DNA of 26,628 nucleotides from a virus. The notes below the pieces were generated by a model. That model was not told the DNA's origin. It saw nothing but the letters and a program-made list of their open reading frames with translations, and did no database searches. The position numbers and the translations under genes are program-made. Of this stretch, positions 3,316-24,682 are shown one piece after another (within the stretch, counting starts at the first letter, position 1; every line of letters starts with the position of its first letter). Where the stretch lies: positions 1-26,628 of IMG/VR virus record IMGVR_UViG_3300047566_000138. One strand, 5' to 3'.

Positions 3316-3380
3316 TGTTGGGATAAAGGTTTAGCGTACCCAACACGATTCTGCCGCAAGGAGAATCATTTAATAATTTT
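3316..3380 (+). ncRNA. Candidate small RNA or structured leader downstream of P1
   Basis: About 65 bases with two hairpins and no reading frame. Hairpin 1 pairs TGTTGGG (3316-3322) with CCCAACA (3339-3345). Hairpin 2 pairs GATTCT(g)CC (3347-3355) with GGAGAATC (3360-3367) around a GCAA tetraloop, and is followed by the T-rich stretch ATTTAATAATTTTT. The only ribosome-binding-like sequence (AAGGAG, 3358-3363) sits in hairpin 2 with no start codon after it. The parts promoter, 5' hairpin, second hairpin and U-rich end look like a short independent transcript. Alternatively it is the leader remnant of a gene displaced by the neighbouring homing endonuclease. Confidence 0.45.
3347..3380 (+). terminator. 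Possible intrinsic terminator with GCAA tetraloop
   Basis: Stem GATTCT(g)CC / GGAGAATC with a GNRA-type GCAA loop, then ATTTAATAATTTTT. The U-run is interrupted, so efficiency is uncertain. It would stop plus-strand transcripts from P1 and from the PAAR gene before they run antisense through the endonuclease gene. Confidence 0.5.
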
Positions 3381-3980
3381 TGCTTTCCATCCTTTGTGTT
3401 GATTTACTTTACCTAGTGCAACTGATCTTATTGCTGCCCTATTTAATTGTTTTTCTTTACACCACTTAGTAAATCCACCTGAAATAACATGAATATTACC
3501 TAACGGATCAATTAGTTCATATGTTGTTTTTCCATAATTAGGATTTTTTTCTGGATATATTTTATATAATTGTTTCAAATATTTGCTTTTATTTTCTCTT
3601 TGTTTTTGACGTGCTTCTGGATTATTCATATAGTACTTCTTTTTTGAAATACTCATTTTTTCTTTAGTTTCTGCCGTAACAAAACGAATTATTCCTGTTG
3701 TACCTTCACCACCATCTGTCATATTTCTAAGCATACCTGTTTCATTATCTTTACGACCATACCAACGTATTAAACGTCTTTCTAGTGCTAATGCACCAAT
3801 TTCGGTAAGATTAGATTCGCATATTATTATTCTAGATTTATCTTTAGGCGTTTTTGCATTTTTATGATTTATATGATCCCATGCTCTATAACCCTTACCT
3901 TTGCCAATATAGTAAGGACTGCCATCTTCTCTGAGATAAGCATATACATAGTATTCTAATGTTGATTGATAAATAGACAT
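3366..3980 (-). CDS. GIY-YIG homing endonuclease, free-standing
   Basis: A 204-residue protein with an N-terminal GIY-YIG nuclease domain: Y-Y-V-Y-A-Y (10-15), Y-Y-I-G-K-G (23-28), the following R32, the A-L-E-R-R-L-I helix with the catalytic Glu, and [11 protein letters not shown], as in phage Seg-type enzymes. A Lys-rich linker leads to a C-terminal DNA-binding part, F-T-K-W-C-K-E-K...A-I-R-S-V-A-L-G, which looks like a helix-turn-helix. Such enzymes cut alleles lacking the gene and spread it. The start is the ATG at 3980 (M-S-I-Y), preferred over one 60 bases upstream because GGGAG lies 9 bases before it and the HNH gene at 22773-23435 begins in the same way. It lies antisense between intact genes (PAAR protein and hsp20). 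Confidence 0.9.
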
Positions 3981-4038
3981 ATGCTGACACTCCCTATTAG
4001 TGTTAGAGTGGATAGATGTTTCCAGCATCGTGATCCAC
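3981..4038 (-). promoter_or_regulatory. Structured leader of the GIY-YIG gene, shared with the HNH gene
   Basis: Read on the minus strand, GTGGAT (4038-4033) pairs with ATCCAC (4013-4008). Inside it GATG pairs with CATC around the 7-base loop CTGGAAA. A second hairpin, ACACT / AGTGT (4003-3999 and 3991-3987), holds the ribosome binding site GGGAG in and beside its loop. The unpaired stretches ATCACG, ACTCTAAC and TCAGCAT are identical in the leader of the HNH gene at 23436-23490, while the stems differ by compensating changes. Confidence 0.7.
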
Positions 4039-4043
4039 AATAT

Positions 4044-4051
4044 TATTTATA
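4044..4051 (-). promoter_or_regulatory. T4-type late promoter for the GIY-YIG gene
   Basis: The minus strand reads TATAAATA, the exact T4 late promoter box recognised by the gp55 sigma-like factor. A start about 6 bases downstream would fall at 4038, the first base of the structured leader. No -35 element is needed for this class. Confidence 0.7.
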
Positions 4052-6041: not shown

Positions 6042-6785
6042 ATGCAATTGCGAATAGAAAACTCTGTTGTCGTGATAACACCTACTGTAGGCAAATCTCA
6101 ACTAAAAAATGCAATTGAAAGTGTTAGTAAACAAACATATAAGAATCTAACACATCTTATTGTTGTTGATGGAACAGAATATTTTCAAGATGTGTTGAGA
6201 GTCACACCTATTAAAGATACTGTGATTATTACTACAGCACCATATAATACTGGTGGTAATGGATACTATGGTCATAGAATCTATGCTGCATATTCTCATC
6301 TTGTAAATCATGATTATGTTGCATTTCTTGATGAAGATAACTGGTATGAACCTAATCATATTGAATCTCTGGTTGACACACTAGAGAAAAAAGATTATGA
6401 TTGGGTTCATTCTCTGCGTAAAGTTTATGTAGAAAATGAATATCTTGCTGATGATTGTTGTGAGAGTATTGGTCGTTATCCAATCTGGTTCTCACAGCCA
6501 GATAATCCACAACATCTAGTTGATACATCATCATATCTATTCAAACGTGACTTTCTAACAAGAGTTGCATCATACTGGCATTATGGGTGGGGAGGTGATA
6601 GAAGATTTTTCACTATCATAACTAAAGGTATGAATCATGATAATTATGGCACATCAGGTCAACATACATTAAACTATAAGTTACCTGATATGAATAAAGC
6701 ATATGGTGGTGATTTCAAATTCTTTGAAAAGGGCAATGAATATATCAAGCAACAGTATGGTGGTAAATATCCATGGACAGAATGA
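6042..6785 (+). CDS. Family 2-like glycosyltransferase
   Basis: A 247-residue protein with a GT-A fold signature: V-V-V-I-T-P-T-V-G-K-S-Q-L at the N-terminus, S-V-S-K-Q-T-Y-K-N-L-T-H-L-I-V-V-D-G (about 28-45) for nucleotide binding, and F-L-D-E-D-N-W-Y-E-P-x-H (about 95-106), the DxD-type site that holds the metal and nucleotide sugar. No membrane segments are seen, so it would act in the cytoplasm. It opens the sugar cassette 15 bases after the endolysin and overlaps the next gene by 13 bases. Donor and acceptor cannot be predicted. Confidence 0.8.
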   Translation: MQLRIENSVVVITPTVGKSQLKNAIESVSKQTYKNLTHLIVVDGTEYFQDVLRVTPIKDTVIITTAPYNTGGNGYYGHRIYAAYSHLVNHDYVAFLDEDNWYEPNHIESLVDTLEKKDYDWVHSLRKVYVENEYLADDCCESIGRYPIWFSQPDNPQHLVDTSSYLFKRDFLTRVASYWHYGWGGDRRFFTIITKGMNHDNYGTSGQHTLNYKLPDMNKAYGGDFKFFEKGNEYIKQQYGGKYPWTE

Positions 6786-7504
6786 ATCTTTCACAATTTC
6801 TATATTCTGTTGTTAATGCACAGAATGATGATTTGAATTACTTAAATCTTTTTGGCAAGTGTCTTTCTAGTATAGGAAAAACAACATCACAGAACTTTCA
6901 AGATGTATGGGTACTACACGAATTAAAAGATAAGCACAATGGCTTCTTTGTCGAGTTTGGTGCTACAAACGGCATTGATTGTTCAAACACATATATGCTA
7001 GAGAAAGATTATGGATGGAAAGGTATTCTTGCAGAACCAAATCCTTATTGGCATGATGCATTGTTCAGGAATAGAAATTGTGCTATTACAACAGAGTGTG
7101 TTTATACCAAATCAAATGAACAGTTAACATTCAATGCAGTTGCTAATGCCGCCGATCTTTCTACTATTCAAGGTTATGGTGATACTGATGAACATAGTCA
7201 AGTAAGAGAAAATCATTCTGCTATTACAGTAAGAACAGTTTCATTACTTGATCTGCTAAAGAAAAACAATGCACATCAAATCATTGATTATCTTTCAATT
7301 GATACTGAGGGGAGTGAATTGGATATTCTTACTCAGTTTTTTACCGAAAACACACAGTATCAAATTAGATGCATTACAGTAGAACATAACAATAACATTA
7401 TCATGAGATTTAAACTTAAAGAATTACTAGAAGAACAAGGATACACAAGAAAGTTTACTGAAATTTCAAGATGGGACGACTACTATTTTAAGGATGTGAC
7501 ATGA
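6773..7504 (+). CDS. FkbM-family methyltransferase
   Basis: A 243-residue SAM-dependent methyltransferase of the FkbM type. N-F-Q-D-V-W-V-L-H-E-L leads into G-F-F-V-E-F-G-A-T-N-G-I-D-C-S-N-T (about 55-71), the SAM loop in this family. W-K-G-I-L-A-E-P-N-P follows, with the acidic residue that binds the ribose, then V-S-L-L-D-L-L and D-Y-L-S-I-D-T-E-G-S-E-L-D-I-L. FkbM enzymes O-methylate sugars or polyketides. The neighbouring sugar genes suggest a glycan substrate. The start could be 6773 or the ATG at 6782, which overlaps the previous stop as ATGA. It is coupled to the next gene by another ATGA overlap. Confidence 0.85.
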   Translation: MDRMNLSQFLYSVVNAQNDDLNYLNLFGKCLSSIGKTTSQNFQDVWVLHELKDKHNGFFVEFGATNGIDCSNTYMLEKDYGWKGILAEPNPYWHDALFRNRNCAITTECVYTKSNEQLTFNAVANAADLSTIQGYGDTDEHSQVRENHSAITVRTVSLLDLLKKNNAHQIIDYLSIDTEGSELDILTQFFTENTQYQIRCITVEHNNNIIMRFKLKELLEEQGYTRKFTEISRWDDYYFKDVT

Positions 7505-8439
7505 CAAAAAATCTGATTATTGGCTTTGCTGCTAATTATGAATGGAGAGATTTACAGTATTGGGTTAATTCAATTCAGAAAACTAAGTATTCTGGTGATA
7601 TTCATATCGTCTCTGATAATATGAAAAGAGAGACAATTGAAAAACTATCATCAAAGAATGTCCAGTTAAGTTTGTATGGTAAGAAAAATGATAATGGTGA
7701 CTTTGTAGCAGAACAAAGCATTGCACCACATGTCAACAGATTCTTCTACATCTGGAACACTCTCAAGATGTTGAATGCTGATTATCGGTATGTTGTTACT
7801 ACTGATGTCAGGGATGTTGTCTTTCAATCTGACCCTATTGACTGGCTAGAAGAAAATCTAGTAATGCATTCTCTTGTTGCATCTTCGGAAGGATTAAAGT
7901 ATCAAGATGAACCATGGGGAAATAAAAATCTACATGATGCGTTTGGACCATTTTATCATAAACAGATGAAAGATAATCTGATATATAACGTCGGTACTAT
8001 TGCTGGTGATTATTATCATGTTCGTGGTCTATTGTCTCTGATCTTTCAATTGAGCATCAATAGACCAATTCAAATTGTAGATCAAGCAGTATACAACTAT
8101 TTGGTTAACACTGATCCTTTTTATAATGATACAATGTTCACAAGCAATAAAGATTGTTGGGCAATTCAATTAGGAACAACACTAGAAGCAGTTAGATCAG
8201 GATCAGGTGATTTAGGGCAAGCATACATAAGAGATAGAGCAGCACAATTACGATATCTTGAGGCATATGTTGATCATCCTGTCTTTATTGAAGATGGCAT
8301 AGTAAAAGATTTAGAGAAAAGACCGTATCCAATTGTTCATCAATATGACAGAATACCTGATTTGAAAATGAAAATACAACAGATTTATGGAGATAATGAT
8401 GTTTCTGAATCCAGAACAATTTTCTATCACTCAGTCTAA
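7501..8439 (+). CDS. Putative glycosyltransferase (GT-A type, DVRD motif)
   Basis: A 312-residue protein whose N-terminus, N-L-I-I-G-F-A-A-N-Y-E-W, and the stretch Y-R-Y-V-V-T-T-D-V-R-D-V-V-F-Q-S-D-P (about 97-114) fit a GT-A glycosyltransferase with a D-x-R-D metal site. Y-N-V-G-T-I-A-G (about 161-168) and V-D-Q-A-V-Y-N-Y (about 195-202) also fit, the latter at the usual place of a late acidic residue. No transmembrane segment is present. It overlaps both neighbours (ATGA at 7501 and 41 bases with the next gene), so it belongs to the coupled cassette. Family number and substrates are not recognised. Confidence 0.65.
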   Translation: MTKNLIIGFAANYEWRDLQYWVNSIQKTKYSGDIHIVSDNMKRETIEKLSSKNVQLSLYGKKNDNGDFVAEQSIAPHVNRFFYIWNTLKMLNADYRYVVTTDVRDVVFQSDPIDWLEENLVMHSLVASSEGLKYQDEPWGNKNLHDAFGPFYHKQMKDNLIYNVGTIAGDYYHVRGLLSLIFQLSINRPIQIVDQAVYNYLVNTDPFYNDTMFTSNKDCWAIQLGTTLEAVRSGSGDLGQAYIRDRAAQLRYLEAYVDHPVFIEDGIVKDLEKRPYPIVHQYDRIPDLKMKIQQIYGDNDVSESRTIFYHSV

Positions 8440-8905
8440 AGAGATGGGAATATGGCCACCAAGTGATCTTGTAGCGTCTAGTATTATTCCATATATCAAG
8501 AGAATGCCAAACAAAGTTAATATTCTTGATGTTGGAACAATGAAGGGTGAAAACGCATTTAGATTTCTTGAGTTGGACAGTAAGAATAAAATTGACACAA
8601 TTTTTACAATCAAGACAACAGATGAACATAATGATTTGATTGATACAAATCTCAAGGCACATTATGGTAAGGTAATCCTCACTGAACCAAAAGAACCTGT
8701 TGAAATAGTCTGTATCAACTCAAACACTGATCTTGACATCATCCTTAAAAAGTATTATGATCACGTGAAGACTAACGGTATATTTTGTGGCAATAATCAT
8801 TCTGATAGTAAAGTAAAAACAGCATTATCTAAGTTTAGACGTGAAAACAGAATTGGCACTCCTATTTCTGTTGCTTTAGACACATGGTTCTGGTACAGGA
8901 GATAA
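8399..8905 (+). CDS. Putative SAM-dependent methyltransferase, small
   Basis: A 168-residue protein with V-N-I-L-D-V-G-T-M-K-G-E-N-A (about 39-52), a class I SAM-binding motif, and weaker later strands. It is shorter than full methyltransferases, and the region after the first motif is divergent, so activity is uncertain. The start at 8399 is chosen because TGGAG at 8388-8392 lies 6 bases before it; in-frame ATGs at 8387 and 8396 are possible. It ends 2 bases before the epimerase start, whose ribosome binding site lies inside this gene. Confidence 0.5.
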   Translation: MFLNPEQFSITQSKEMGIWPPSDLVASSIIPYIKRMPNKVNILDVGTMKGENAFRFLELDSKNKIDTIFTIKTTDEHNDLIDTNLKAHYGKVILTEPKEPVEIVCINSNTDLDIILKKYYDHVKTNGIFCGNNHSDSKVKTALSKFRRENRIGTPISVALDTWFWYRR

Positions 8906-8907
8906 TT

Positions 8908-9930
8908 ATGAAAACAGCACTCTGCCTTGGAGCAGGCGGATTTATTGGCAACCATATGGTCAACAGACTGAAGAAAGATGGATATTGGGTTCGTGGCGTT
9001 GATCTCAAGACACCCGAATTCAGTAAAAGCATGGCTGATCATTTTGTTGTTCGTGATCTTAGAGAGCAAAGAGAAGTTCATGAACTGATTGGTTATGCTG
9101 GTTCATGCCGTGATCCTCATCAGATTTGGGCAATGGCATTTGATAAACCATTTGATGAAATTTATCAGTTTGCTGCTGATATGGGAGGTGCAGGATTTAT
9201 TTTTACAGGAGAGCATGATGCTGATGTCATGCATAATTCAGCAACTATTAATCTGAATGTTCTAAATGCAGTCAAGATGTATAATGAACACAATAAGGTA
9301 AATAAAACAAAGATTTTCTATTCATCTTCTGCATGTATCTATCCAGAACATAATCAGCTTGATCCTGATAATCCAAACTGTGAAGAATCTTCAGCATATC
9401 CTGCTAATCCTGATTCAGAGTATGGTTGGGAAAAACTATTCTCAGAGAGACTATATCTAGCGTTCAACAGAAACTATAATATTCCTGTTCGTATTGCTAG
9501 ATTTCACAACATCTATGGTCCATTAGGAACATGGCAGGGTGGTAGAGAAAAGGCTCCTGCTGCTATTTGTCGTAAAGTATTAACATCATATGATGAAATT
9601 GAAATCTGGGGTGACGGTAAACAGACAAGATCGTTCCTATATATTGATGATTGTATTGATGCAGTTAGACTTTTGATGGAATCTGACTTCATGGGGCCAG
9701 TTAATATTGGTTCTGAAGAAATGGTCACAATCAATAAATTAGTAGATATTGCATGTGCAGTTGAGAATAAGAGTCTGATCAAGAAACATATTGAAGGACC
9801 GACAGGTGTTCGTGGTAGAAACTCAGATAACAGACTTATTGAAGAAAAGCTTGATTGGAATCCAAAATATTCTTTGAATACAGGAATTACAAATACATAT
9901 AATTGGATCAAGACACAATTAGAAAGATAA
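8908..9930 (+). CDS. GDP-mannose 3,5-epimerase
   Basis: A 340-residue extended SDR enzyme matching GDP-D-mannose 3',5'-epimerase, which makes GDP-L-galactose (and GDP-L-gulose) from GDP-mannose. NAD binding: G-A-G-G-F-I-G (8-14). Family-specific stretches are A-A-D-M-G-G-A-G-F-I (89-98), S-S-S-A-C-I-Y-P-E (139-147) with the epimerising Cys143, Y172-G-W-E-K176, and R-F-H-N-I-Y-G-P-L-G-T-W with G-G-R-E-K-A-P (211-217), where K215 is the second acid/base. G-V-R-G-R-N-S-D-N near the C-terminus is also typical. The plant enzymes share these blocks. AGGAG at 8897-8901 supports the start. It precedes the GT10 gene by 4 bases, suggesting that its product feeds that enzyme. Confidence 0.9.
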   Translation: MKTALCLGAGGFIGNHMVNRLKKDGYWVRGVDLKTPEFSKSMADHFVVRDLREQREVHELIGYAGSCRDPHQIWAMAFDKPFDEIYQFAADMGGAGFIFTGEHDADVMHNSATINLNVLNAVKMYNEHNKVNKTKIFYSSSACIYPEHNQLDPDNPNCEESSAYPANPDSEYGWEKLFSERLYLAFNRNYNIPVRIARFHNIYGPLGTWQGGREKAPAAICRKVLTSYDEIEIWGDGKQTRSFLYIDDCIDAVRLLMESDFMGPVNIGSEEMVTINKLVDIACAVENKSLIKKHIEGPTGVRGRNSDNRLIEEKLDWNPKYSLNTGITNTYNWIKTQLER

Positions 9931-9934
9931 TATA

Positions 9935-10822
9935 ATGAATGTTCTGAAATTAGGGTTTACTGACACTTTTGGCGCAATTGAAAACTTCTTTACAAATATT
10001 CTATCTGAAAAATATCAGGTAATTCGTGATGATCAAAATCCAGACTATTTGATCTTTGGAGACAAGATTTTTGGTGGCAATAATGTCAACTACAATAACA
10101 GAAATTGTGTAAAGATATTCTATACTGGTGAGAATGAAAGACCATGGGATTATCAGTGTCATTATTCTATATCATTTGACCATAATGAATTTGAAGGACG
10201 AAATTACAGACTGCCTTTATATGTGATCTATGATTATGATAATCACCATAGAGATGTACCCAATACATCTACAATTCAAAGAATACCATCTGATCTGTTA
10301 GTAAAAAAAGATTTCTGCTCATTTGTTGTCAAGAATGGTGGATGTCAAAAGAGAAACGAATGGTTTCAGATTTTGAATTCATATAAAGGTGTTGCGTCTG
10401 GTGGTCCATTGTTTAACAACATTGGTTATGTGCTTCCAAGAGGAGAACAATCAGTACAAGCAAAGTTACAATTTCTAAATTCATATCGTTTTAATCTTTG
10501 TTTTGAAAACACATCATATCCTGGTTATGCAACAGAAAAACTATATGAAGCATTATGTGCTAAGACCGTTCCTATCTATTGGGGCAGTCCTACAATTGAA
10601 TGTGATTTCAACACTAAAGCATTCTTGAACTGGCATGATTATGGTAATGATGCTGATTTTCTTGATGCAATTAAAGAGATTGATGATAATCCAGATATGT
10701 ATGAAGAAATGTATCTTCAACCTATGTTTACAGACTATCAACGTGTAAACAAGTTTTTTGACAAAGACAGATTTCTAAACTGGTTTGATCGGAATGTATA
10801 TAAAGGTGTGTTGAATGCATAA
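9935..10822 (+). CDS. GT10 family alpha-1,3-fucosyltransferase homologue
   Basis: A 295-residue protein with the GT10 donor-binding signature near residues 189-219: F-N-L-C-F-E-N-T, then Y-A-T-E-K-L-Y-E-A and V-P-I-Y-W-G-S-P. It continues with F-N-T-K-A-F-L-N, as in bacterial fucosyltransferases such as the Helicobacter enzymes. GT10 enzymes move L-fucose from GDP-L-fucose to a glycan. No GDP-fucose synthesis gene lies in this window, while a GDP-L-galactose producer lies directly upstream. L-galactose is L-fucose with a 6-hydroxyl, so this enzyme may use it. No membrane segment or C-terminal amphipathic heptad repeats are obvious. It overlaps the next gene by 8 bases. Confidence 0.88.
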   Translation: MNVLKLGFTDTFGAIENFFTNILSEKYQVIRDDQNPDYLIFGDKIFGGNNVNYNNRNCVKIFYTGENERPWDYQCHYSISFDHNEFEGRNYRLPLYVIYDYDNHHRDVPNTSTIQRIPSDLLVKKDFCSFVVKNGGCQKRNEWFQILNSYKGVASGGPLFNNIGYVLPRGEQSVQAKLQFLNSYRFNLCFENTSYPGYATEKLYEALCAKTVPIYWGSPTIECDFNTKAFLNWHDYGNDADFLDAIKEIDDNPDMYEEMYLQPMFTDYQRVNKFFDKDRFLNWFDRNVYKGVLNA

Positions 10823-11552
10823 AGCACTGATTATTACTCCTACTGGATGTCCAATGTTCTTTGATGATGAATATGATAAAGATAATCATTGGAGATATGC
10901 TAAGCCAGAAAGAACATATGAAACATTAGTTGTGTCTTTCAAAGAAGACTTTATACCAGAAGAAAATTCATATGATAGATTTGTATATTATCCAATAAGA
11001 TACAAGTGGAAACAGACACCAGAACTGCTTGACATTTTTGATATCAAGTGGTATGATTATGATTATATTGGTATCTGGGATGATGATTATTGCACAGATA
11101 TTCGTTCTGTAAATAGATCACTAGAACTTGCTAGACAGTTTGACTTTCCATTCTTTCAGCAATCGTTGAAATCATGGACAGTGTATCCTTGTCTTGAACA
11201 AGATACAAATTGTTCTTTTGCTAAAACCAACTTCACTGAAATGGGCATCTGCTTTTATAGAACAGATGTGTTTAGTAAAGTTCTTAAACTATTGCGAGAC
11301 TATCAATACAATGAATCTGAATGGGGTATTGATAAGATCATGTGTGACTATCTAAAATTGCCTGCATATATAGTTCATGAAGTATCAGCTAAACACATGA
11401 GACGTGAAAGTTGGTATGATAAGTCAAACGCTTTCAAAGAAATGGACTACTTGATGAAAGAGTGGTTCCCAAAGTATATGAAAGAACAATTCGGTTCTGA
11501 TTATCAATATCATGATAGTCAGGTTGTCATTGAAAAATATAAATTAGGATAA
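10815..11552 (+). CDS. Putative glycosyltransferase, DUF707-like
   Basis: A 245-residue protein. Y-D-Y-I-G-I-W-D-D-D-Y-C-T-D-I (about 83-97) looks like a GT-A metal site, followed by R-S-L-E-L-A-R-Q-F-D-F-P-F-F-Q-Q-S-L, a pattern I associate with DUF707-type putative glycosyltransferases. W-G-I-D-K-I-M-C-D-Y-L later fits the acceptor side of such folds. No signal peptide or membrane segment is seen. It sits between the GT10 gene and the dehydratase gene. The general class is likely, the substrate unknown. Confidence 0.55.
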   Translation: MHKALIITPTGCPMFFDDEYDKDNHWRYAKPERTYETLVVSFKEDFIPEENSYDRFVYYPIRYKWKQTPELLDIFDIKWYDYDYIGIWDDDYCTDIRSVNRSLELARQFDFPFFQQSLKSWTVYPCLEQDTNCSFAKTNFTEMGICFYRTDVFSKVLKLLRDYQYNESEWGIDKIMCDYLKLPAYIVHEVSAKHMRRESWYDKSNAFKEMDYLMKEWFPKYMKEQFGSDYQYHDSQVVIEKYKLG

Positions 11553-11556
11553 AATA

Positions 11557-12600
11557 ATGAGAAAGCGATTGTTATTGACCGGTGGTGCCGGGTTTATCGG
11601 CCATCATGTAGTTGATATTTTTATGCAACAGACAGACTGGGATATCATATCACTAGATAGATTGGATTATTCTGGAAATCTCAATAGACTAAATTCTGTT
11701 GTTAGTTCGTATCCAAAATCAGAACAAAAACGTGTTAAGATTGTATGGCATGATTTGAAAGCAGATGTTCATGAGTTAACACAAAACTTTATTGGTGATG
11801 TGAATATCATTCTCCATCTAGCAGCATCAAGTCATGTTGATCGGTCCATTTCGCATCCAATGGAATTTGTTATGGATAACACCATTGGTACTGTCAATCT
11901 TCTGAATTATGCAAGACGATTGAACAATCTAGAACGACTGATTTACTTCTCCACAGATGAAATCTTTGGTTCTGCACCACCGGGTGTTCTATATGGTGAG
12001 TATGACCGATATAATTCAACTAATCCATATTCAGCATCTAAGGCAGCGGCAGAAGAATTTTGTGTGGCATATGAGAACACATATAAGTTGCCAATCTTTG
12101 TTACACACACAATGAATGTTTTTGGTGAGAGACAGCATCCTGAAAAGTTCATTCCTATGTGTATTCGTAAGATTCGTGATTCCGAGAAGATTTATGTACA
12201 CTCTGATCCCTCAAAGACACAAGCAGGCAGTAGATTTTACATCAATGCTAAGGATGTTGCTGAAGCCATGTATTTTCTTCTTCATATGAATGATACACAA
12301 CATATGATTATCAAGGATCATATGGCATCTCTTGGTGTTCGTTGTCCTAAGTTCAATGTTGTTGGTAAAGAAGAAATTGATAATCTATCAATGGTCAAGA
12401 TTATTGCCGAAGCACAGAACAAAGACCCTGTGTATGAGATGGTAGATTTTCACACTTCACGTCCTGGTCATGATCTAAGGTATTCTCTTGATGGCGCTTT
12501 TATGAAAAAGTTAGGATGGGAACCTAGAATCTCATTGCGTGAAAGACTTCATGAAGTAACACATTGGTCATTGACCAACAAAGAATGGATTGAACTATGA
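11557..12600 (+). CDS. NDP-glucose 4,6-dehydratase, RmlB-like
   Basis: A 347-residue extended SDR enzyme. NAD binding L-L-L-T-G-G-A-G-F-I-G-H-H (5-17), L-H-L-A-A-S-S-H-V-D-R-S-I (about 87-99), the dehydratase signature F-S-T-D-E-I-F-G (about 129-136) with the Asp-Glu catalytic pair, Y-S-A-S-K with the SDR Tyr and Lys, and C-terminal R-P-G-H-D-L-R-Y-S-L. All fit dTDP-glucose 4,6-dehydratase, which makes the 4-keto-6-deoxy intermediate of many deoxysugars. The nucleotide could be dTDP, UDP, CDP or GDP. No nucleotidyltransferase lies in the window, so the donor would come from the host or from phage genes elsewhere. It is coupled to the next gene by ATGA. Confidence 0.82.
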   Translation: MRKRLLLTGGAGFIGHHVVDIFMQQTDWDIISLDRLDYSGNLNRLNSVVSSYPKSEQKRVKIVWHDLKADVHELTQNFIGDVNIILHLAASSHVDRSISHPMEFVMDNTIGTVNLLNYARRLNNLERLIYFSTDEIFGSAPPGVLYGEYDRYNSTNPYSASKAAAEEFCVAYENTYKLPIFVTHTMNVFGERQHPEKFIPMCIRKIRDSEKIYVHSDPSKTQAGSRFYINAKDVAEAMYFLLHMNDTQHMIIKDHMASLGVRCPKFNVVGKEEIDNLSMVKIIAEAQNKDPVYEMVDFHTSRPGHDLRYSLDGAFMKKLGWEPRISLRERLHEVTHWSLTNKEWIEL

Positions 12601-13271
12601 GTGAACATACATTAAGAAATTATTTTGACAATACAAAACATTCTTCTGATAAGTGGGAACCATACTTTGAAGTGTATGAAAGACATCTTAGGAGATTTCT
12701 AATCAGAAGTAATGTACATCTAGTTGAAGTTGGTGTGCAAAAAGGTGGTTCACTTGAAATGTGGAGTAAATATCTACCTGCCGATTCAAGAATTACTGGT
12801 ATTGATGTTGATCCTGAATGTGCTAATCTCAAGTATGATACAGATAGAATATCTGTAATTATCGGCGATCAAAGTTCTGAAACTTTTTGGAATGAAACTC
12901 TACCATCATTAGGCAAGATTGATATCTTTATTGATGACGGTGGTCATTTTATGGATCAACAGATTCTAACATTTGAAAAAGTGTTTCCTCTGATGCCACA
13001 TAACTCAGTCTATATCTGTGAAGATACACATACAAGTTATATGCCATACAATGGTGGTGGTTTTAGAACAAAAGGCAGTTTTATTGAGTATGCCAAACAG
13101 TATATTGATGTGATTCATTCTAAGTGGATAGATGAACTGGACACAGAATTTGAGAGAAAGAAAAAGATTGCAAATGACTTGACATCAGTTCACTTCTATG
13201 ATAGCATGATAGTGTTTGAAAAGTTTGGAAAAAAGGATATGACTCGTGTTTCACCAATCAAATTCCGTTAA
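12597..13271 (+). CDS. Class I SAM methyltransferase (sugar O-methyltransferase-like)
   Basis: A 224-residue protein with V-H-L-V-E-V-G-V-Q-K-G-G-S-L-E-M-W (about 40-56), the SAM loop, then I-T-G-I-D-V-D-P-E-C with the ribose-binding acid. Next comes I-D-I-F-I-D-D-G-G-H-F-M-D-Q-Q (about 108-122), a metal-binding D-D-G-G-H signature found in macrocin-O-methyltransferase and related sugar methyltransferases. Y-I-C-E-D-T-H-T-S-Y follows. These enzymes methylate hydroxyls of deoxysugars. It overlaps the C-methyltransferase by 26 bases, suggesting joint work on one sugar. Confidence 0.75.
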   Translation: MSEHTLRNYFDNTKHSSDKWEPYFEVYERHLRRFLIRSNVHLVEVGVQKGGSLEMWSKYLPADSRITGIDVDPECANLKYDTDRISVIIGDQSSETFWNETLPSLGKIDIFIDDGGHFMDQQILTFEKVFPLMPHNSVYICEDTHTSYMPYNGGGFRTKGSFIEYAKQYIDVIHSKWIDELDTEFERKKKIANDLTSVHFYDSMIVFEKFGKKDMTRVSPIKFR

Positions 13272-14478
13272 GTTGAATAACTGTCTTGCTTGTGGATCAA
13301 CTGATCTAAAATTAACTCTTGATCTGAATACACAACCACTAGCCAACTCATACAAAAATACTAAAAATGAAGAACAAGAACAGTTTCCACTTGCTATCAA
13401 TAGATGTGAAAAATGTTATCATGTACAACTAACACATGCAGTTAACCCAGAACTTATGTTCAAAGAGTATTTGTATGTATCTGGCACATCAAATACAATG
13501 AAAGAACACTTCAAGTGGTTTGCTGATTTTAGTATTGAGTATTATAATCATTGTGGTAACGATGCATTATCTGTATTTGATATTGGCTGTAATGATGGTA
13601 CACAGTTAGATGCATACAGAAATATGAATATGATGACTGCTGGTATTGATCCTGCAGTTAATTTGTCTGCTAAATCAAAGTATAAAGGACATACAATCTA
13701 TGTAGATTTTTTTGATCCTAACTTTGTGCTCAATCATGATTTAACATATGACATTATCACAGCACAGAATGTATTTGCTCATAACTATGATCCTTTGACA
13801 TTCATGTTATGTGCAAAGAAGATTATGGATAATAACTCATTATTTTTTGTACAAACATCACAAGCTGATATGATTGTCAATAATGAGTTTGATACAATTT
13901 ATCATGAGCATATTTGTTTCTATAACATCAACTCAATGAATAATCTATGTAAAAGAGCAAATCTGCATTTGATTGATGTTATCAAATGTCCTTTGCATGG
14001 AAACAGTTATGTCTTTATTATTTCAAGAAATGAAGATAGAGCAAGACCTGCTCATGTTTTTAATCTAATTGAAATGGAAAGAAAGATAGGTCTATTGAAT
14101 GATGAGACATATATCAAATATTCAGAGAAGTGTAACTCTGTTGTTGATGATCTAAGAAAAGTAGTTGATGTTAATCAAGGCACATATAAAATTGTTGGTT
14201 ATGGTGCAGCAGCAAAAGGAATGACACTTTTGAACTATTCTGGCGTCAAACTTGATTATATCATTGATGATAATCCTCTAAAGCAAGGTAAGTTTACACC
14301 AGGATCAAATATTGAAATCTGTTCTATTGATAGACTTGATACAGAAACAGGACCAATCTTGTTTATTCCTCTGGCATGGAACTTCTTTACTGAAATCAAG
14401 AACAAAATCAAAACCAGAAGACAAAATGATTATGATAAGTTCTGTACATATTTTCCTAAAGTAGAGATTTCTTCATGA
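13246..14478 (+). CDS. NDP-sugar C-methyltransferase
   Basis: A 410-residue protein with the three-part layout of NDP-hexose C-methyltransferases such as TylC3. There is an N-terminal zinc domain (C-L-A-C-G near 13-17 and C-E-K-C near 54-57), a SAM domain with V-F-D-I-G-C-N-D-G-T-Q-L (about 109-120) and Y-H-E-H-I-C-F-Y (about 216-223, the catalytic Tyr-His-Glu-His block), and a C-terminal Rossmann-like domain with G-Y-G-A-A-A-K-G. These enzymes add a methyl branch at a carbon of a 4-keto sugar, the kind of product the RmlB-like enzyme makes. The start is GTG at 13246 with AAGGA at 13233-13237. It ends in an ATGA overlap with the next gene. Confidence 0.85.
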   Translation: MFHQSNSVKLNNCLACGSTDLKLTLDLNTQPLANSYKNTKNEEQEQFPLAINRCEKCYHVQLTHAVNPELMFKEYLYVSGTSNTMKEHFKWFADFSIEYYNHCGNDALSVFDIGCNDGTQLDAYRNMNMMTAGIDPAVNLSAKSKYKGHTIYVDFFDPNFVLNHDLTYDIITAQNVFAHNYDPLTFMLCAKKIMDNNSLFFVQTSQADMIVNNEFDTIYHEHICFYNINSMNNLCKRANLHLIDVIKCPLHGNSYVFIISRNEDRARPAHVFNLIEMERKIGLLNDETYIKYSEKCNSVVDDLRKVVDVNQGTYKIVGYGAAAKGMTLLNYSGVKLDYIIDDNPLKQGKFTPGSNIEICSIDRLDTETGPILFIPLAWNFFTEIKNKIKTRRQNDYDKFCTYFPKVEISS

Positions 14479-15260
14479 AGAATGTTTTATATTATCATGC
14501 ATACTTGACAGATGATCCAGCAGTTTGGTCATCTGTCATTCTTGAACAAATGAAATGTATGGAAGATGCAGAATTATTATCTAATCTGTCTGAAATCCGT
14601 ATGACTTGCATCACACAGCTTGATGCAAGGAACGAATATATTGCGCAATTATGCAGAACTTATCCTGTCAAGTTTTCTATAGAACTTATTGAAAATACAT
14701 ATAGTACAGACAGAGAAATGTTGTCTGGTCTAAATTCAGATAGAACTATTACTGAAAACTATACATATCGTAAAATCTATAATGATTGTCAAAAAGAAGA
14801 TATGAGAGTTTGTTATATTCATACTAAAGGTATTACTTCTGGTATGAAGATATCAAGAGATACTATACAGCAACACAAGAACTATTATTATTGGAGACAA
14901 TATCTTAATTGGGGTGTTATTGAAAAGTGGAAAGCATGTATTTCAGCATTACAAGATCATGATGTTGCTGGTGTAAACTATTATACTAAACCATCAAAAC
15001 ATTTCTCTGGTAATTTCTGGTGGGCTAATTCATCTTACATCAATAGTTTGCCTGATCCATCAACAATTGATTGGTGGAGAAAATTACAAAGAGAAACTAA
15101 TGATCAATGGCTCAAGTTCGCTTCTGACAGATTTAGAGACGAGCAATGGCTTTGTTCTTCTGATACAGTAAAAGTATATGAAGTCCACAAACTAAATCAA
15201 GCAGAAAATCCAGCAGCAACATTCTTACCTCGCAGGAGATATGATAATGAAGTTTATTGA
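14475..15260 (+). CDS. Putative glycosyltransferase (polysaccharide synthesis type)
   Basis: A 261-residue protein without membrane segments. V-C-Y-I-H-T-K-G-I (about 112-120), W-R-Q-Y-L-N-W-G-V-I-E-K-W-K-A-C (about 139-154) and H-F-S-G-N-F-W-W-A-N-S-S-Y-I (about 178-191) form a pattern I know from uncharacterised proteins in capsule and O-antigen clusters, probably glycosyltransferases. It closes the sugar cassette. The next gene starts inside its 3' end. The function is inferred from context and remembered motifs only. Confidence 0.5.
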   Translation: MKNVLYYHAYLTDDPAVWSSVILEQMKCMEDAELLSNLSEIRMTCITQLDARNEYIAQLCRTYPVKFSIELIENTYSTDREMLSGLNSDRTITENYTYRKIYNDCQKEDMRVCYIHTKGITSGMKISRDTIQQHKNYYYWRQYLNWGVIEKWKACISALQDHDVAGVNYYTKPSKHFSGNFWWANSSYINSLPDPSTIDWWRKLQRETNDQWLKFASDRFRDEQWLCSSDTVKVYEVHKLNQAENPAATFLPRRRYDNEVY

Positions 15261-17593: not shown

Positions 17594-17605
17594 AAACAAA
17601 GTTAT

Positions 17606-17613
17606 TATAAATA
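17606..17613 (+). promoter_or_regulatory. T4-type late promoter of the Vsr-like endonuclease gene
   Basis: Exact TATAAATA, 13 bases after the stop of the polymerase N-piece. The expected start near 17619 falls inside the 5' arm of the hairpin that hides the ribosome binding site. Confidence 0.72.
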
Positions 17614-17641
17614 CTTCTATAGTTCAATTATAGGAGTATTT
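17609..17641 (+). promoter_or_regulatory. Hairpin that hides the ribosome binding site of the Vsr-like endonuclease
   Basis: AAATACTTCTATA (17609-17621) pairs with TATAGGAGTATTT (17629-17641), 13 pairs including one T-G, around a 7-base loop. The ribosome binding site TAGGAG is wholly inside the 3' arm, and the TTG start follows 3 bases later. Read-through transcripts would form the full hairpin. Transcripts from the late promoter would lack most of the 5' arm. This is the arrangement described for T4 intron endonuclease genes. Confidence 0.72.
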
Positions 17642-17644
17642 GAT

Positions 17645-18433
17645 TTGTCAAATCAAAACACAAAAATAACAAAAGAGTTAGATTCAAGAATAACTGAAAT
17701 AAAAAGTTTATTACTCGAAGAATATTCTGTTTCTGAAATATCTAAAATAATAGGATTTGGATATGCTTCGGTTTATAATGCTATTCAAAGAAATGAGTTG
17801 TCCAGTTTAATTAGTGTTAAGAATAATGGAAAAAGTAAAACATCTAAAAAATACTACGAAGATAGAAATTTATTTGATAAATCAACATTATTGAGAGAAT
17901 ATGTAGACAATAAACTTAATTTATATGAAATTGCAGAAAAGTATAAAACATCAGCAGCAAATGTTCTACTTTATATGAGAAAGTATGATATTAAAACAAG
18001 AACAAAAAGCGAAGCAACAAAATTACTTTATGAAAAACATGGTGATATACTTAGAGAAAAACACAGACAAAACGCATACAACGGAATAACAGGAATTCAT
18101 CGTAAGGGATATAGTAGAACCGAAACATGGATAGAAAAATTTTTTGAGAAATATTGTATTGATAATAATATTAAATATGAAAAACAATATCAGATAAATT
18201 GCAAAGGACATAGATATGATTTTTTGATATATGATAATCTTTTAATAGAGTTAGATGGTAATTTTTGGCATAACACAGAAAAACAAAAAAAACTTGATGA
18301 AAGTCATAATTATCTTGCAAAAGAAAATGGTTATGATATAATAAGATTTACTGATTCAGAAATTAAAAAAACGAAAGGATCGTGTTTTGAAAAAATTAGA
18401 GAATATGACAATGGACGAACTAATTGCTTATAA
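17645..18433 (+). CDS. Vsr-like homing endonuclease inserted in the DNA polymerase gene
   Basis: A 262-residue protein starting at TTG 17645, 8 bases after GGAG. Two helix-turn-helix segments, about 26-52 (V-S-E-I-S-K-I-I-G-F-G-Y-A-S-V) and 86-113 (L-Y-E-I-A-E-K-Y-K-T-S-A-A), would read DNA. The nuclease part, 157-240, has E160, R-Y-D192-F-L-I, L-I-E202-L-D-G-N-F-W-H209 and G-Y-D-I-I-R-F. This is the Vsr / E-D-x-H-D type described as a homing endonuclease family in fractured phage genes (Dassa and colleagues 2009). The reading frame ends inside the start of the polymerase C-piece. It is probably expressed late. Confidence 0.85.
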   Translation: MSNQNTKITKELDSRITEIKSLLLEEYSVSEISKIIGFGYASVYNAIQRNELSSLISVKNNGKSKTSKKYYEDRNLFDKSTLLREYVDNKLNLYEIAEKYKTSAANVLLYMRKYDIKTRTKSEATKLLYEKHGDILREKHRQNAYNGITGIHRKGYSRTETWIEKFFEKYCIDNNIKYEKQYQINCKGHRYDFLIYDNLLIELDGNFWHNTEKQKKLDESHNYLAKENGYDIIRFTDSEIKKTKGSCFEKIREYDNGRTNCL

Positions 18434-19503
18434 ATCTGGAGTAGAAAAAACGATTGCAAGATATAATAATCTGCAATTAGCTAAAAAGGTGAGTCTTTAA
18501 CTCAGCATACGGTGCACTTGGTAATGAATACTTCCGGTTTTTTGATGTTCGTCAAGCATCTGCAATTACTACTGCTGGTCAATTATCCATTCGCTGGATT
18601 GAAAACAAACTTAATTCTTATCTAAATAAATTACTATCAACACAAGATAAGGATTATGTCATTGCATCAGATACGGACTCGATTTATCTATCTCTTGATG
18701 AATTGGTGCGCCAAACTATTGGAAAAACAATTGATGCTAGTGATTCTTCAAAAACGATCACATTCTTGGATAAGGTCTGTGAGAGTAAAATACAACCGTA
18801 TATTGATAAATGCTACAATGAACTTGCTAGATATACTAATGCCTACGCCCAAAAAATGATCATGAAGCGTGAAGCATTATGTGATAAAGGTATATGGACA
18901 GCCAAGAAACATTATGTATTGAATGTCTATAATAATGAAGGTATTGCATACAAGACTCCTCAAGTAAAAATTATGGGTCTTGATATGATTAAGTCTTCAA
19001 CACCATCTGCTTGTCGTGTAAAGTTGAAAGAAGCACTTGATGTTATTTTGAGCAAGTCCGAAACAGATATGATTGAATTTATTGAGAAGTTTAGAAAAGA
19101 GTTCAAGAAACTTCCTGTTGCAGATATTGCGTTTCCTCGTGGTGTAAATGGTGTTAACGAATACACAGACAAAGAAACATCATCTCCTAAGAAAGGTACA
19201 CCGATTCATGTCCGTGGTTCTATTATGTACAATAACAGTATCAAAAAGCATAAGTTGCATAAAAAATATCCAATGATTATGGAAGGTGAGAAGATCAAGT
19301 TTATCTATTTGAAAGAACCAAACACTATTCAAAGTAATATCATATCGTTTCATCAGATATTGCCCGTTGAGTTTGATCTGAATAAATATATTGATTATGA
19401 TATACAATTTAATAAATCATTTCTTGAACCACTTAAAACACTGTTAGACAGTATTGGATGGAAGACAGAACAAGTTAATACACTAGAGGCATTTTTCTCA
19501 TAG
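18405..19503 (+). CDS. 43: DNA polymerase gp43, C-terminal piece (motifs B and C), with +1 frameshift
   Basis: From ATG 18405 (or 18411) the frame reads M-T-M-D-E-L-I-A-Y-K...I-A-R-Y-N-N-L-Q-L-A-K-K-V-S-L and then meets TAA at 18498. One base further on, the frame from 18499 reads N-S-A-Y-G-A-L-G-N-E-Y-F-R, so joining at +1 restores motif B K-K-V-S-L-N-S-A-Y-G exactly. It goes on to motif C S-D-T-D-S-I-Y (about 18661-18681) and ends L-E-A-F-F-S, like the clamp-binding end of T4 gp43. The downstream frame has no start codon before the catalytic D-T-D-S, so it depends on the upstream one. The result is about 365 residues. The cause is a programmed shift, a mutation or a sequence error; see the separate entry. 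The 5' end overlaps the endonuclease gene by 29 bases. Confidence 0.85.
18487..18501 (+). promoter_or_regulatory. Candidate programmed +1 frameshift site (prfB-like)
   Basis: AGGTGA (18487-18492), a perfect match to the 16S rRNA anti-Shine-Dalgarno end, then GT, then CTT-TAA-C. The RF2 gene uses a Shine-Dalgarno-like element, 3 bases, then CTT-TGA-C. The two frames overlap only at 18493-18497, because the downstream frame has TGA at 18490-18492 and the upstream frame has TAA at 18498. The shift must therefore happen on CTT. Confidence 0.45.
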
Positions 19504-22153: not shown

Positions 22154-22798
22154 ATGGAAATTGATCAACTCATACTGAAAAATCTGATTAGAAATGAAGA
22201 ATACACACGTAAGGTTCTTCCGTTTCTAAAGGAAGAATACTTCCTGTCAGATGACAGTAAAGTGTTGTTTCAAACTGTCCATGAATTTATCATCAAATAT
22301 AATACACCGCCAACTTACGATGCCCTTTTAGTAGAAGTAAATACTAAACAAGGGCTTCGTGAGGAAACTGTCAAGAACATTAAACAAAATCTTGATACAT
22401 ATATGACCAGTCAAGAGGATACAAATCTTGACTGGTTAATCAATTCTACAGAACAGTTTTGTCAGGAAAAAGCAATATATAATGCTATCATGAAGTCTAT
22501 TGACATCATGAATAATACAAAAGCACAACAATCAAAAGGAAGCATACCACAGTTACTTTCTGATGCTTTATCTATATCTTTTGATCCAAATATTGGTCAT
22601 GATTATTTACAAGACTTTGATCAGAGATATGAATATTATCATCGTGTAGAAGAAAAGATTCCTTTTGATCTTGAATTCTTCAATAAGATTACAAAGAATG
22701 GATTGCCAAAGAAAACTTTGAATATTGCGCTTGCTGGGTGTGTACATCCAGAAACAAAAGTAAAAATTAGATTTAGGAAGAAGAATACTGATTCTTAG
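22154..22798 (+). CDS. 41: Replicative helicase gp41, N-terminal piece fused to a 19-residue split intein N-part
   Basis: Residues 1-195 match the N-terminal domain of T4 gp41: A-L-S-I-S-F-D near 142, I-G-H-D-Y, I-P-F-D-L...N-K-I-T-K-N-G and T-L-N-I-A-L-A-G, which is the first half of the ATP-binding P-loop. At residue 196 (TGT, 22739) the sequence changes to C-V-H-P-E-T-K-V-K-I-R-F and stops after 19 residues. A Cys followed by x-x-x-D/E-T-x-V/I is intein block A. The partner C-part and C-extein are at 23519-24682. Without splicing the helicase has no intact Walker A. An N-intein of 19 residues is far shorter than the canonical roughly 100 and resembles the atypical split inteins AceL-TerL and VidaL. 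The last 26 bases overlap the convergent HNH gene. Confidence 0.9.
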   Translation: MEIDQLILKNLIRNEEYTRKVLPFLKEEYFLSDDSKVLFQTVHEFIIKYNTPPTYDALLVEVNTKQGLREETVKNIKQNLDTYMTSQEDTNLDWLINSTEQFCQEKAIYNAIMKSIDIMNNTKAQQSKGSIPQLLSDALSISFDPNIGHDYLQDFDQRYEYYHRVEEKIPFDLEFFNKITKNGLPKKTLNIALAGCVHPETKVKIRFRKKNTDS

Positions 22799-23435
22799 AA
22801 GGATGTGGAGACCCGAAGATATAACCATCATTCAAATATGATTGTATATCTTCGGGTTTCACTCTGACAAAAGTTTTGTCTCCTGGTCTATACATACATT
22901 TTTTGCCTTTGTGTGTTTTACCGCCCAAAGATGCTCTTTTCTTTCTACCATCTTTGCTTGCCCAATAGGACCATGGATTATTAGGAGAAACTATTGATGC
23001 TTTACCGCCCAAAGATGCTCTCTCCTTTCTGCCTTCATTTGTAGACCAATAATAAAATGTTTCTTTGGTATTATTTTGTTTTTGTGTTTCTAAACCTTTT
23101 TGTTGCGCTTTTTTTCTAACTTCTGGATCATGATATCCTATTTTGTTTTCTTTACACCATAAACCCACAATTCTTCTTTGTTCATATGTTAGATTTGCAC
23201 CAAGCATTTTCATTGAACGAATATCATTTGGATTTTTGTGGATTTTCCAGAGAAGAAAGTGCGCAATGATATGTTCTCTGATTGTGAGATATGTGAAATT
23301 AGAATCATCGTCTGTACCACCAGAATGTTTAGGAATGATATGATGCCTATGAAGATTAGAACCAGATTGCCAACTTTCTTTTAGTTGACATCTACTTTGA
23401 CATAGATTATAATAGATGACAGAATAAATACTCAT
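22773..23435 (-). CDS. HNH homing endonuclease, antisense between the intein halves
   Basis: A 220-residue protein. H31-H32-I-I-P-K-H-S-G-G-T-D-D-D-S-N46-F and R-E-H55-I-I-A-H59 form an HNH nuclease site of the H-H-N-H type. Downstream lie two near-identical modules of the form Y-W-x-x-x-x-G-R-K-x-R-A-S-L-G-G-K (NUMOD3-like), and a C-terminal stretch with V-K-P-E-D-I-Q-S-Y-L-N-D-G-Y, presumably DNA-binding. The start is the ATG at 23435 (M-S-I-Y, as in the GIY-YIG gene), with GGAG 7 bases upstream inside a hairpin; the frame is open to 23492. It would cut helicase genes lacking the insertion and so mobilise it. Its 3' end overlaps the tail of gp41-N. Confidence 0.88.
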   Translation of the reverse strand: MSIYSVIYYNLCQSRCQLKESWQSGSNLHRHHIIPKHSGGTDDDSNFTYLTIREHIIAHFLLWKIHKNPNDIRSMKMLGANLTYEQRRIVGLWCKENKIGYHDPEVRKKAQQKGLETQKQNNTKETFYYWSTNEGRKERASLGGKASIVSPNNPWSYWASKDGRKKRASLGGKTHKGKKCMYRPGDKTFVRVKPEDIQSYLNDGYIFGSPHPSKNQYSSS

Positions 23436-23490
23436 GCTGATGCTCCGTCTAGCGTTAGAGTCCATGGGTATTTGCAGTACCGTGATGGAC
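23436..23490 (-). promoter_or_regulatory. Structured leader of the HNH gene, shared with the GIY-YIG gene
   Basis: On the minus strand GTCCAT (23490-23485) pairs with ATGGAC (23465-23460). Inside it GGTA pairs with TACC around CTGCAAA. A weaker hairpin, ACGCT / AGCAT with one mismatch, carries GGAG. ATCACG, ACTCTAAC and TCAGCAT are identical to the leader at 3981-4038. The stems differ there as GTGGAT/ATCCAC and GATG/CATC, so pairing is kept while the bases change. Confidence 0.7.
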
Positions 23491-23495
23491 ACTTT

Positions 23496-23503
23496 TATTT
23501 ATA
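23496..23503 (-). promoter_or_regulatory. T4-type late promoter for the HNH gene
   Basis: The minus strand reads TATAAATA exactly. A start about 6 bases downstream falls at 23490, the first base of the outer stem of the leader, as in the GIY-YIG gene. The box lies only 15 bases upstream of the start of the gp41 C-piece on the other strand. Confidence 0.72.
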
Positions 23504-23518
23504 AAACAAGAGGTTTCA

Positions 23519-24682
23519 ATGTCTGATTGGTGTGAAAAAGAAATTTCTATATCTGAAATACAAACATTACTTAATAATCATTATGAAGTTGAAGTTGATT
23601 CGCCTGATGGATGGGTTGGTGTGAATTTTTTTATTGATAAAGGTAAATGGGATGAATATGTATTAACAACAGTAAATGGTTTAGAGGTTAGATGCAACGA
23701 AGACCATTTATTTAAAACCAACATGGGTTGGGTTCGTGCTAAAAATATGATTAATCCAGATTCTTTATGGATTGTTGAAACAAATAAAGGACCAAGTGTG
23801 GCTAATGTAATTAAAACAAACAATGAAATACAAATCGTTGATATTAATGTTAATCATAAAAATCATAGATATTATACCAATGGTGTTGAATCACATAATA
23901 CGGGTGTTGGTAAATCTTTGTTCATGTGTCATGTTGCAGCGTCTTGTTTGAATATGGGTAAAAATGTTCTTTATATAACACTTGAATTGGCGGAAGAAGA
24001 AGTTGCCAAAAGAATTGATGCTAATCTAATGAATATTACGTTTGAAGACTTAATGAGTTTAACTAAAGATATGTATGATAAGAAAGCAAATTCAGTTAAG
24101 AATAAAACCAATGGTAAACTGATTATCAAAGAATATCCAACAGCTTCAGCATCAGCAATACATTTCAAAGCATTGTTGAATGAACTATATCTTAAGAAAA
24201 CATTTCGGCCAGATATTATCTTTATTGATTATCTGAATATCTGTTCTTCTGCTAGAGTTAAACCAGGTGCACAAGTAAACTCCTATACATATGTTAAATC
24301 TATTGCCGAAGAACTTAGAGGTCTTGCTGTTGAATACACTGTACCTGTTGTTTCTGCTACACAAACAACCAGATCTGGTTATGTTAGTTCTGATGTTGGA
24401 CTGGAAGATACTTCAGAATCATTTGGACTTCCTGCTACTGCTGATTTCATGTTTGCTTTAATCTCTACAGAAGACTTAGAGAAACTAGGACAAATCATGG
24501 TCAAGCAATTGAAGAATCGGTATAATGATCCTTCATTGAATAAACGCTTTGTTGTTGGTATAGATAGGAGCAAGATGAAACTATATGATGTAGAAGATAC
24601 AGCACAAACAGAAATTATTGATTCTGGTCAAACATTCGTCAATAATGTAGTCAAGAACAAGTTTAAGACATTAAAGGTGTGA
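23519..24682 (+). CDS. 41: Split intein C-part (127 residues) fused to the C-terminal piece of helicase gp41
   Basis: Residues 1-127 are the intein C-part: V-D-S-P-D-G-W-V-G-V near 26-35, block B-like V-R-C-N-E-D-H63-L-F-K-T, block F-like V-D-I-N-V-N-H (107-113) and H116-R-Y-Y-T-N, and the terminal splice block G-V-E-S-H126-N127 followed by Thr as first extein residue. From 128 on the sequence is gp41: T-G-V-G-K-S, E-L-A-E-E-E-V-A-K-R-I-D-A-N, I-I-F-I-D-Y-L-N-I-C (Walker B) and S-F-G-L-P-A-T-A-D-F. Joining A-L-A-G to T-G-V-G-K-S rebuilds a Walker A motif and a 455-residue helicase (T4: 475). AAGAGG at 23507-23512 supports the start at 23519. Trans-splicing is inferred, but every required residue is present. 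Confidence 0.9.
   Translation: MSDWCEKEISISEIQTLLNNHYEVEVDSPDGWVGVNFFIDKGKWDEYVLTTVNGLEVRCNEDHLFKTNMGWVRAKNMINPDSLWIVETNKGPSVANVIKTNNEIQIVDINVNHKNHRYYTNGVESHNTGVGKSLFMCHVAASCLNMGKNVLYITLELAEEEVAKRIDANLMNITFEDLMSLTKDMYDKKANSVKNKTNGKLIIKEYPTASASAIHFKALLNELYLKKTFRPDIIFIDYLNICSSARVKPGAQVNSYTYVKSIAEELRGLAVEYTVPVVSATQTTRSGYVSSDVGLEDTSESFGLPATADFMFALISTEDLEKLGQIMVKQLKNRYNDPSLNKRFVVGIDRSKMKLYDVEDTAQTEIIDSGQTFVNNVVKNKFKTLKV

Follow-up and report, generated by a model that had tools for sequence, protein, structure and literature searches.

How can a phage keep its replicative helicase when the gene is broken in the middle of the ATP-binding loop? The question is raised by IMGVR_UViG_3300047566_000138, a 26,628-nt IMG/VR viral contig of an environmental phage, which we analysed over its whole length (hereafter, the window). 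There, gp41, an essential DnaB-like helicase of the T4 type, is encoded on the plus strand by two genes, gp41-N (22154-22798) and gp41-C (23519-24682), each with additional residues at the break and with an antisense HNH gene lying in between. We consider it very probable that the additional residues form a VidaL-type split intein inserted in the Walker A motif, that trans-splicing rebuilds the ATP loop, and that a late-expressed HNH endonuclease drives homing of the element before it decays, the two halves of the intein occasionally becoming fused again.

The anatomy of the locus can be read directly from its translations. The gp41-N product consists of a 195-aa extein (22154-22738) ending in TLNIALAG, and thus in the first two residues of Walker A, followed from a cysteine onwards by a 19-residue tail and a stop codon (IntN, CVHPETKVKIRFRKKNTDS, 22739-22798), to be compared with CLPKEAVVQIRLTKKG, the IntN of VidaL in UvsX. 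The gp41-C gene, preceded by a Shine-Dalgarno-like AAGAGG (23508-23513) 5 nt ahead of its start codon, opens with a 127-residue head (IntC, MSDW...VESHN, 23519-23899) that contains a block B N-x-x-H and ends in His-Asn. This head is followed by a 260-aa C-extein (23900-24682; Pfam DnaB_C, E-value 2.4e-16) that starts at Thr+1 with TGVGKSLF. When compared to the PHROG_19 profile of DnaB-like helicases, residues 1-195 of the N piece cover positions 161-361 (E-value 7.9e-42) and residues 128-369 of the C piece cover positions 362-592 (E-value 5e-75). Because the match breaks at 361|362, the exteins abut with neither gap nor overlap, and the break falls between A-G and T-G-V-G-K-S of Walker A. Neither gp41 piece would be expected to bind ATP alone. 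The HNH gene (22773-23492, minus strand, GTG start; Pfam HNH, 1.8e-5; phrog_655 homing endonuclease, 1.5e-16) overlaps the IntN coding region with its 3' end; its true start is likely the ATG at 23435 (220 aa), from which the members of the family align. A two-part host gene, a split intein and an endonuclease gene between the pieces are thus all present, as in fractured-gene loci.

Is this arrangement an accident of one contig? A search with IntC retrieved 27 viral contigs and a profile search 141, from which we retained the best 80; altogether about 90 viral contigs were found to carry the element (individual loci are given as L numbers below), which excludes chance. Every locus with sufficient sequence has a short Cys-started tail in gp41-N and a gp41-C head ending in His-Asn, then Thr. 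One pattern search itself required Cys and SHN, so conservation seen with it did not count by itself. All complete loci from tblastn satisfied that pattern when checked, their IntC copies all ending in His-Asn then Thr, and Cys opens the intein tail in each N piece seen; in an alignment made independently (A1), N60, H63, H126 and N127 of IntC are invariant. Conversely, when gp41 loci were fetched by the C-extein alone, the site was uninterrupted in 74 of 80 and read LAGTGVGKS (LAGTGVGKT in one); the remaining six comprise two intein carriers (L031 and L098) and four loci that begin at or near the site. An intein-free sibling (L181/L269, IMGVR_UViG_3300005805_000045, 164 kb) even has the same neighbouring genes and an intact gp41, and provides a natural empty-site reference. 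A preliminary description of this DNA, made from the sequence alone, had proposed that gp41 is split inside its P-loop with an HNH gene nested antisense; the profile junction, the uninterrupted relatives and the recurrence of the arrangement bear it out. Beyond environmental viruses, no gp41-inserted relative of IntC was present among the matches listed for cultured phages, which were UvsX and TerL inteins of about 33% identity, and no relative was found in GTDB genome contigs. The window itself had no megablast match in 50,697 phage records.

Do the tail and the head belong to a single intein? Six contigs carry a contiguous intein at the same gp41 Walker A: a near-identical sequence in five of them (L156, L158, L159, L160 and L164, with a 598-residue open reading frame in four) and another on a truncated contig (L027). 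Since these inteins occupy the same gp41 site, the 19-residue tail and the 127-residue head are parts of one intein, and IntN of the window aligns to residues 1-15 of L158 and L027. An AlphaFold2 model of the contiguous L158 intein (predicted local distance difference test 95.2, predicted template modelling score 0.86) has a HINT fold with both splice junctions. Its best match in the PDB is VidaL (VIA-align Z 21.0, 1.5 A over 136 residues, 32% identity), ahead of gp41-1 in second place (Z 18.2), and Foldseek also ranks VidaL first (3.0e-12 vs 1.2e-07 for the next). At Z >= 5, 85 PDB chains match the model, and among the matches listed they are inteins or hedgehog/BIL-type HINT domains. By sequence, IntC of the window matches VidaL (6vgv) at an E-value of 6.4e-11, and in a profile comparison at 5.7e-15 vs 9e-07 for the next solved intein. 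The residues of class 1 inteins, Cys1, block B H63, H126-N127 and Thr+1, are found in all complete copies. Together, sequence and model support the assignment of the element as a VidaL-type, class-1-like split intein, and the union of tail and head that had been postulated stands.

The position of the break defines the type further. VidaL and PolB16 are split at S1, after the second beta strand, and AceL-TerL at S2, after the first helix (PMC13014065). In the model, the break follows a 19-residue IntN and separates beta strands 2 and 3 (residues 7-13 and 19-24), and the first helix (residues 25-33) lies wholly within IntC. The AceL-TerL type is therefore ruled out, the break being at S1 rather than S2. 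The preliminary description had named AceL-TerL and VidaL together as the class and gp41-1 as a further intein to align; of these VidaL is the closest, and only the VidaL half of the class assignment holds.

If the intein is functional, two genes would separately yield gp41-N (195 aa plus the 19-aa IntN) and gp41-C (the 127-aa IntC plus 260 aa), whose intein halves would associate, and protein trans-splicing would ligate the exteins and restore the ATP-binding loop. The halves could instead be vestigial, gp41 being a plain fractured gene whose pieces assemble non-covalently. T4-like phages do have working split enzymes, for example the Aeh1 NrdA that mobE interrupts and, in phage 25, a split gp43 (PMC2988022), and the window itself contains a fractured gp43, at whose break no intein halves were recognised. 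What makes this explanation very improbable is that no complete copy lacks Cys1, the block B His, the terminal His-Asn or Thr+1, that the predicted HINT fold is intact, and that a break within Walker A would be hard to bridge without ligation. The ratio of nonsynonymous to synonymous divergence (dN/dS) between the window and L001 is also low, 0.13 for IntN, 0.18 for IntC and 0.15 for the HNH gene: the intein parts are under purifying selection.

What, then, is the HNH gene doing in the break? Its homologues occupy the gap in about 60 loci, nearly always antisense (sense in L021, L023 and L024), and nearly all sufficiently large gaps hold this same antisense gene. Residues H29, H31, N46, H55 and H59 are invariant across 18 diverse aligned copies, as befits the catalytic residues of HNH homing endonucleases; as to the DNA-binding tail, a relative in L113 shows a weak match to an I-TevI-type DNA-binding domain (8e-05, under the Pfam cut-off). 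A model of the HNH protein (predicted local distance difference test 91.7, predicted template modelling score 0.58) had no PDB match below an E-value of 0.001.

Two opposed promoters seem to accompany this gene. The first is a T4-type late promoter octamer, TATAAATA, which lies within the gp41-C leader (23496-23503, minus strand) and points into the HNH gene; a single such octamer is no evidence by itself because the window contains 5 vs 3.9 expected. The second is a sigma-70-like promoter, TTGACA-17-TATAAT (23385-23413, plus strand), which points toward gp41-C, runs antisense within the HNH 5' coding region and is perfect in the window (12/12 matches). The octamer stands just upstream of the HNH gene in 40/44 related loci vs 1.8% of shuffles, and a sigma-70-like promoter with at least 10/12 matches, mostly inside the HNH 5' end, in 40/44 vs 8% of shuffles, counts that come from related rather than independent sequences and overlap with the constraint on HNH coding. 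The recurrence of the motif at the same place is consistent with the late promoter attributed to the HNH gene from the outset, and T4 homing endonuclease genes are known with embedded promoters of the downstream gene, and with late promoters (PMC2988022). By this arrangement, the sigma-70 promoter would keep gp41-C expressed early.

The element has moved recently between diverged phages. In four pairs, synonymous divergence (dS) is high in the exteins and nearly absent from IntC: L004/L013 (exteins 1.73 and 1.51, IntC 0.03), L118/L151 (1.40/1.10 and 0.03), L135/L148 (1.14/1.36 and 0.04) and L155/L158 (1.28/1.03 and 0.04). The breaks lie at the insertion site, as in L004/L013, whose identity rises from 77% to 98-100% at the site and falls back to 80%. 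L135/L148 shows short co-conversion on its C side, and in L007/L013 a stretch of about 600 nt is 100% identical. Across the non-redundant pairs, 36 of 1275 have an N-extein below 80% yet an IntC above 95%. This pattern fits homing, and we envision that the antisense HNH protein acts as its engine, most likely cutting intein-free gp41 alleles late in infection, after which repair would copy IntN-HNH-IntC and short flanks into the new genome.

Several observations, in addition to the reservation about the promoter counts, weigh against so simple a picture. The nearest relatives of the window, L001 and L002, show old exchange only (IntC dS about 0.6; against L001, 0.60 for IntC, 0.87 for HNH and 1.72 for the C-extein), so recent homing applies to relatives and not to the window copy. 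The HNH gene has been exchanged separately from the intein in L113/L151 (IntC 98%, HNH 66%), and IntN has been left behind in L118/L151. The three parts therefore form no strict unit, and the "complete mobile unit" of the preliminary description needs qualifying: transfer is evident, but the HNH gene can be exchanged or disappear on its own, and IntN is sometimes not co-transferred. In an extreme version, the HNH gene would be a free-standing homing gene that enters the intein at a weak point and spreads on its own, the intein being a passive passenger and the split mere damage. HNH exchange over a resident IntC, movement of HNH and IntC without IntN, the existence of HNH-free splits and contiguous forms, and the sense orientation in L021/L023 would all agree with this possible but doubtful alternative. 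It accounts poorly for pairs (L004/L013 and L155/L158) in which IntN and IntC were transferred together and the breaks coincide with the intein insertion site, a pattern that independent spread of the HNH gene would not give unless its target were the intein-free gp41 site. We thus retain homing of the split intein by its HNH gene.

What happens once the targets run out? The HNH gene would then decay, leaving a split without endonuclease, and occasional deletions would fuse the halves into a contiguous intein. A series of loci with shared flanks and near-identical IntC captures the first step: 707, 390, 172 and 37 nt separate the pieces in L011, L013, L007 and L004, in which the HNH gene is undergoing deletion. 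Splits without endonuclease also occur in L002, L098 and L166, with gaps of 55, 44 and 2 nt. In the IntC tree, where only shallow placements were used because 15/42 inner branches are open, the contiguous L158 nests among the split copies L147, L149, L155 and L163, and L027 joins L003. The fusion junctions differ, TTCTTG|GTGGATTG in L158 and AGGAAA|TTTATG in L027, where the former gp41-C start codon and leader bases persist as codons. Two independent re-fusions apparently are the simplest reading of these sequences, based on the shallow tree and, for L027, on a single truncated contig.

The opposite order, in which the contiguous form is ancestral in the family and splits arose several times, would agree with the contiguous relative in another gene (UvsX of Salicola phage SCTP-2) and with the L158 junction, which is compatible with a clean insertion. 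We find it unlikely given that the tree places L158 inside copies that are split and carry HNH, and L027 beside L003, that L027 retains the remnant of the gp41-C start, and that all splits, including that of VidaL, are at about the same place. Re-fusion of split copies, the order we favour, leads to a broader proposal, to which we give an even chance: for a homing element, intein splitting would be a phase that can be undone, in a cis-trans-cis cycle. Invasion by the HNH gene would keep the gp41 P-loop intein broken, opposed promoters would set early expression of the helicase apart from late expression of the endonuclease, and after decay of the HNH gene the halves would have re-fused into a working contiguous intein at least twice independently. 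If true, this would be a natural, sequence-resolved cycle of protein splicing in wild phage populations.

The intein break also seems to collect accessory genes. A further sense gene, about 120-280 aa long, accompanies the HNH gene in nine loci (L018, L109, L119, L123, L129, L135, L138, L143 and L152) and takes its place in L167. These genes belong to various unknown families, with weak matches to a metallopeptidase (L129), the RyR domain (L135 and L167) and a nucleotidyltransferase (L018).

A second fractured replication gene, that of the DNA polymerase gp43, is found on the same contig. In gp43-C (18409-18520), the reading frame runs through NLQLAKKVSL to a stop, and NSAYGALG (motif B, then DTDS) continues in the +1 frame. 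The junction, AAAAAGGTGAGT-CTT-TAA-C, resembles an RF2-like programmed frameshift site, with a Shine-Dalgarno-like AGGTGA and CTT followed by stop and C; along the putative +1 frameshift stretch, AAAAAGGTGAGTCTTTAACTC, the product would read KKVSL-NSAYGALG. The same kind of site occurs in 12 other viral contigs (L258-L269) and in 0/73 contiguous gp43 genes, and thus, as far as resolvable, only in fractured gp43 genes, among them that of the intein-free sibling L181/L269, whose gp43 is likewise fractured and frameshifted. Between gp43-N and gp43-C lies a DUF559/MTES_1575-type endonuclease gene with a helix-turn-helix (17594-18433), with the late octamer just upstream (17606-17613); about half of the gp43 loci with the frameshift have this endonuclease, and others lack it. 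The fractured gp43 resembles T4 gene 60, where a split with a homing endonuclease and a recoding signal also occur together (PMC5009743). A GIY-YIG-like endonuclease gene with a weak Pfam match (3366-4051, minus strand) has the octamer immediately upstream as well (4044-4051, minus strand). All three endonuclease genes of the window thus carry it, taking 3/5 of its octamers. Upstream of the replication genes (6042-15260), a long series of translations resembles glycosyltransferases, NAD-dependent sugar epimerases and methyltransferases.

Which of these features are new? As classes, the VidaL-type split intein, the fractured gene and the HNH homing gene are known already. As far as the literature we found shows, four things are new: the VidaL type at a site in the gp41 P-loop, an HNH family encoded antisense, evidence that a short-N split intein has homed recently, and the series of decay and re-fusion. 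The screening paper that introduced VidaL may reportedly name an intein of a T4-like helicase already, which makes priority for the gp41 site uncertain. Very-short-N split inteins are sought-after tools for protein ligation, of which only a handful are characterised, and the locus adds about 90 natural alleles, diverse in sequence and split state, in a host gene and site unlike those of VidaL. Intact, decaying and lost endonucleases, together with contiguous inteins in related phages, provide testable material on how split inteins originate and persist. The ATP site of a replicative helicase would exist only after ligation, and phage replication would depend on trans-splicing.

How does the element compare to known systems? 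The closest is VidaL (PDB 6vgv/6vgw), which has the nearest solved structure, a break after beta strand 2 and an IntN of 16-19 residues. A search with its C part retrieved four viral contigs (L170-L173) in which the host gene is UvsX, in agreement with the earlier remark that known members come from phage-like sequences. UvsX-N ends FAGESG|CLPKEAVVQIRLTKKG and UvsX-C reads IVSHN|SGKS, with an endonuclease-like gene between the pieces in L170 and L171 and none in L172 and L173. VidaL itself thus sits in the P-loop of a phage RecA-fold ATPase, at a fractured locus with the same kind of split, so the window element is of the VidaL type but occupies another host gene and another site. In gp41 (LAG|TGVGKS) the insertion is two P-loop positions earlier than in UvsX (FAGESG|SGKS), the +1 residue is Thr instead of Ser, and the intervening gene is an antisense HNH gene, whereas that of L170 is sense and weakly MTES_1575-like. 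Among cultured phages, Pseudomonas phage PA5oct (NC_071039, L175) and its relatives also have an IntN, CLPETAKVKIRLSKKQS, in a separate small gene, an IntC 33% identical and another gene (477 aa, hypothetical) between the pieces, but differ in the UvsX host gene and site and in the sense orientation of the intervening gene. The 81-aa protein annotated as hypothetical in PA5oct (763-1008) corresponds to UvsX-N followed by an IntN of 18 residues, and an IntC opens the UvsX-like recombinase encoded downstream; this cultured phage thus has a split intein that its annotation misses. Salicola phage SCTP-2 has its UvsX intein in contiguous form. Fractured-gene loci with split inteins, gp41-1 and others, were reportedly described by Dassa et al. 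in 2009; like the present locus, they have an essential phage gene split within an intein and an endonuclease gene in the break. The gp41-1 type is a canonical late split of about 90 + 37 residues at another gp41 site, with an endonuclease of a Vsr-like family. The split PolB intein of phage MIJ3 also comes with an HNH gene and differs in host gene; its blocks A, N2, B and N4 are all in the N part, and it is thus a canonical late split. Finally, AceL-TerL shares with the gp41 element an atypical, short-N split, but is split at S2 and resides in a terminase (PMC13014065).

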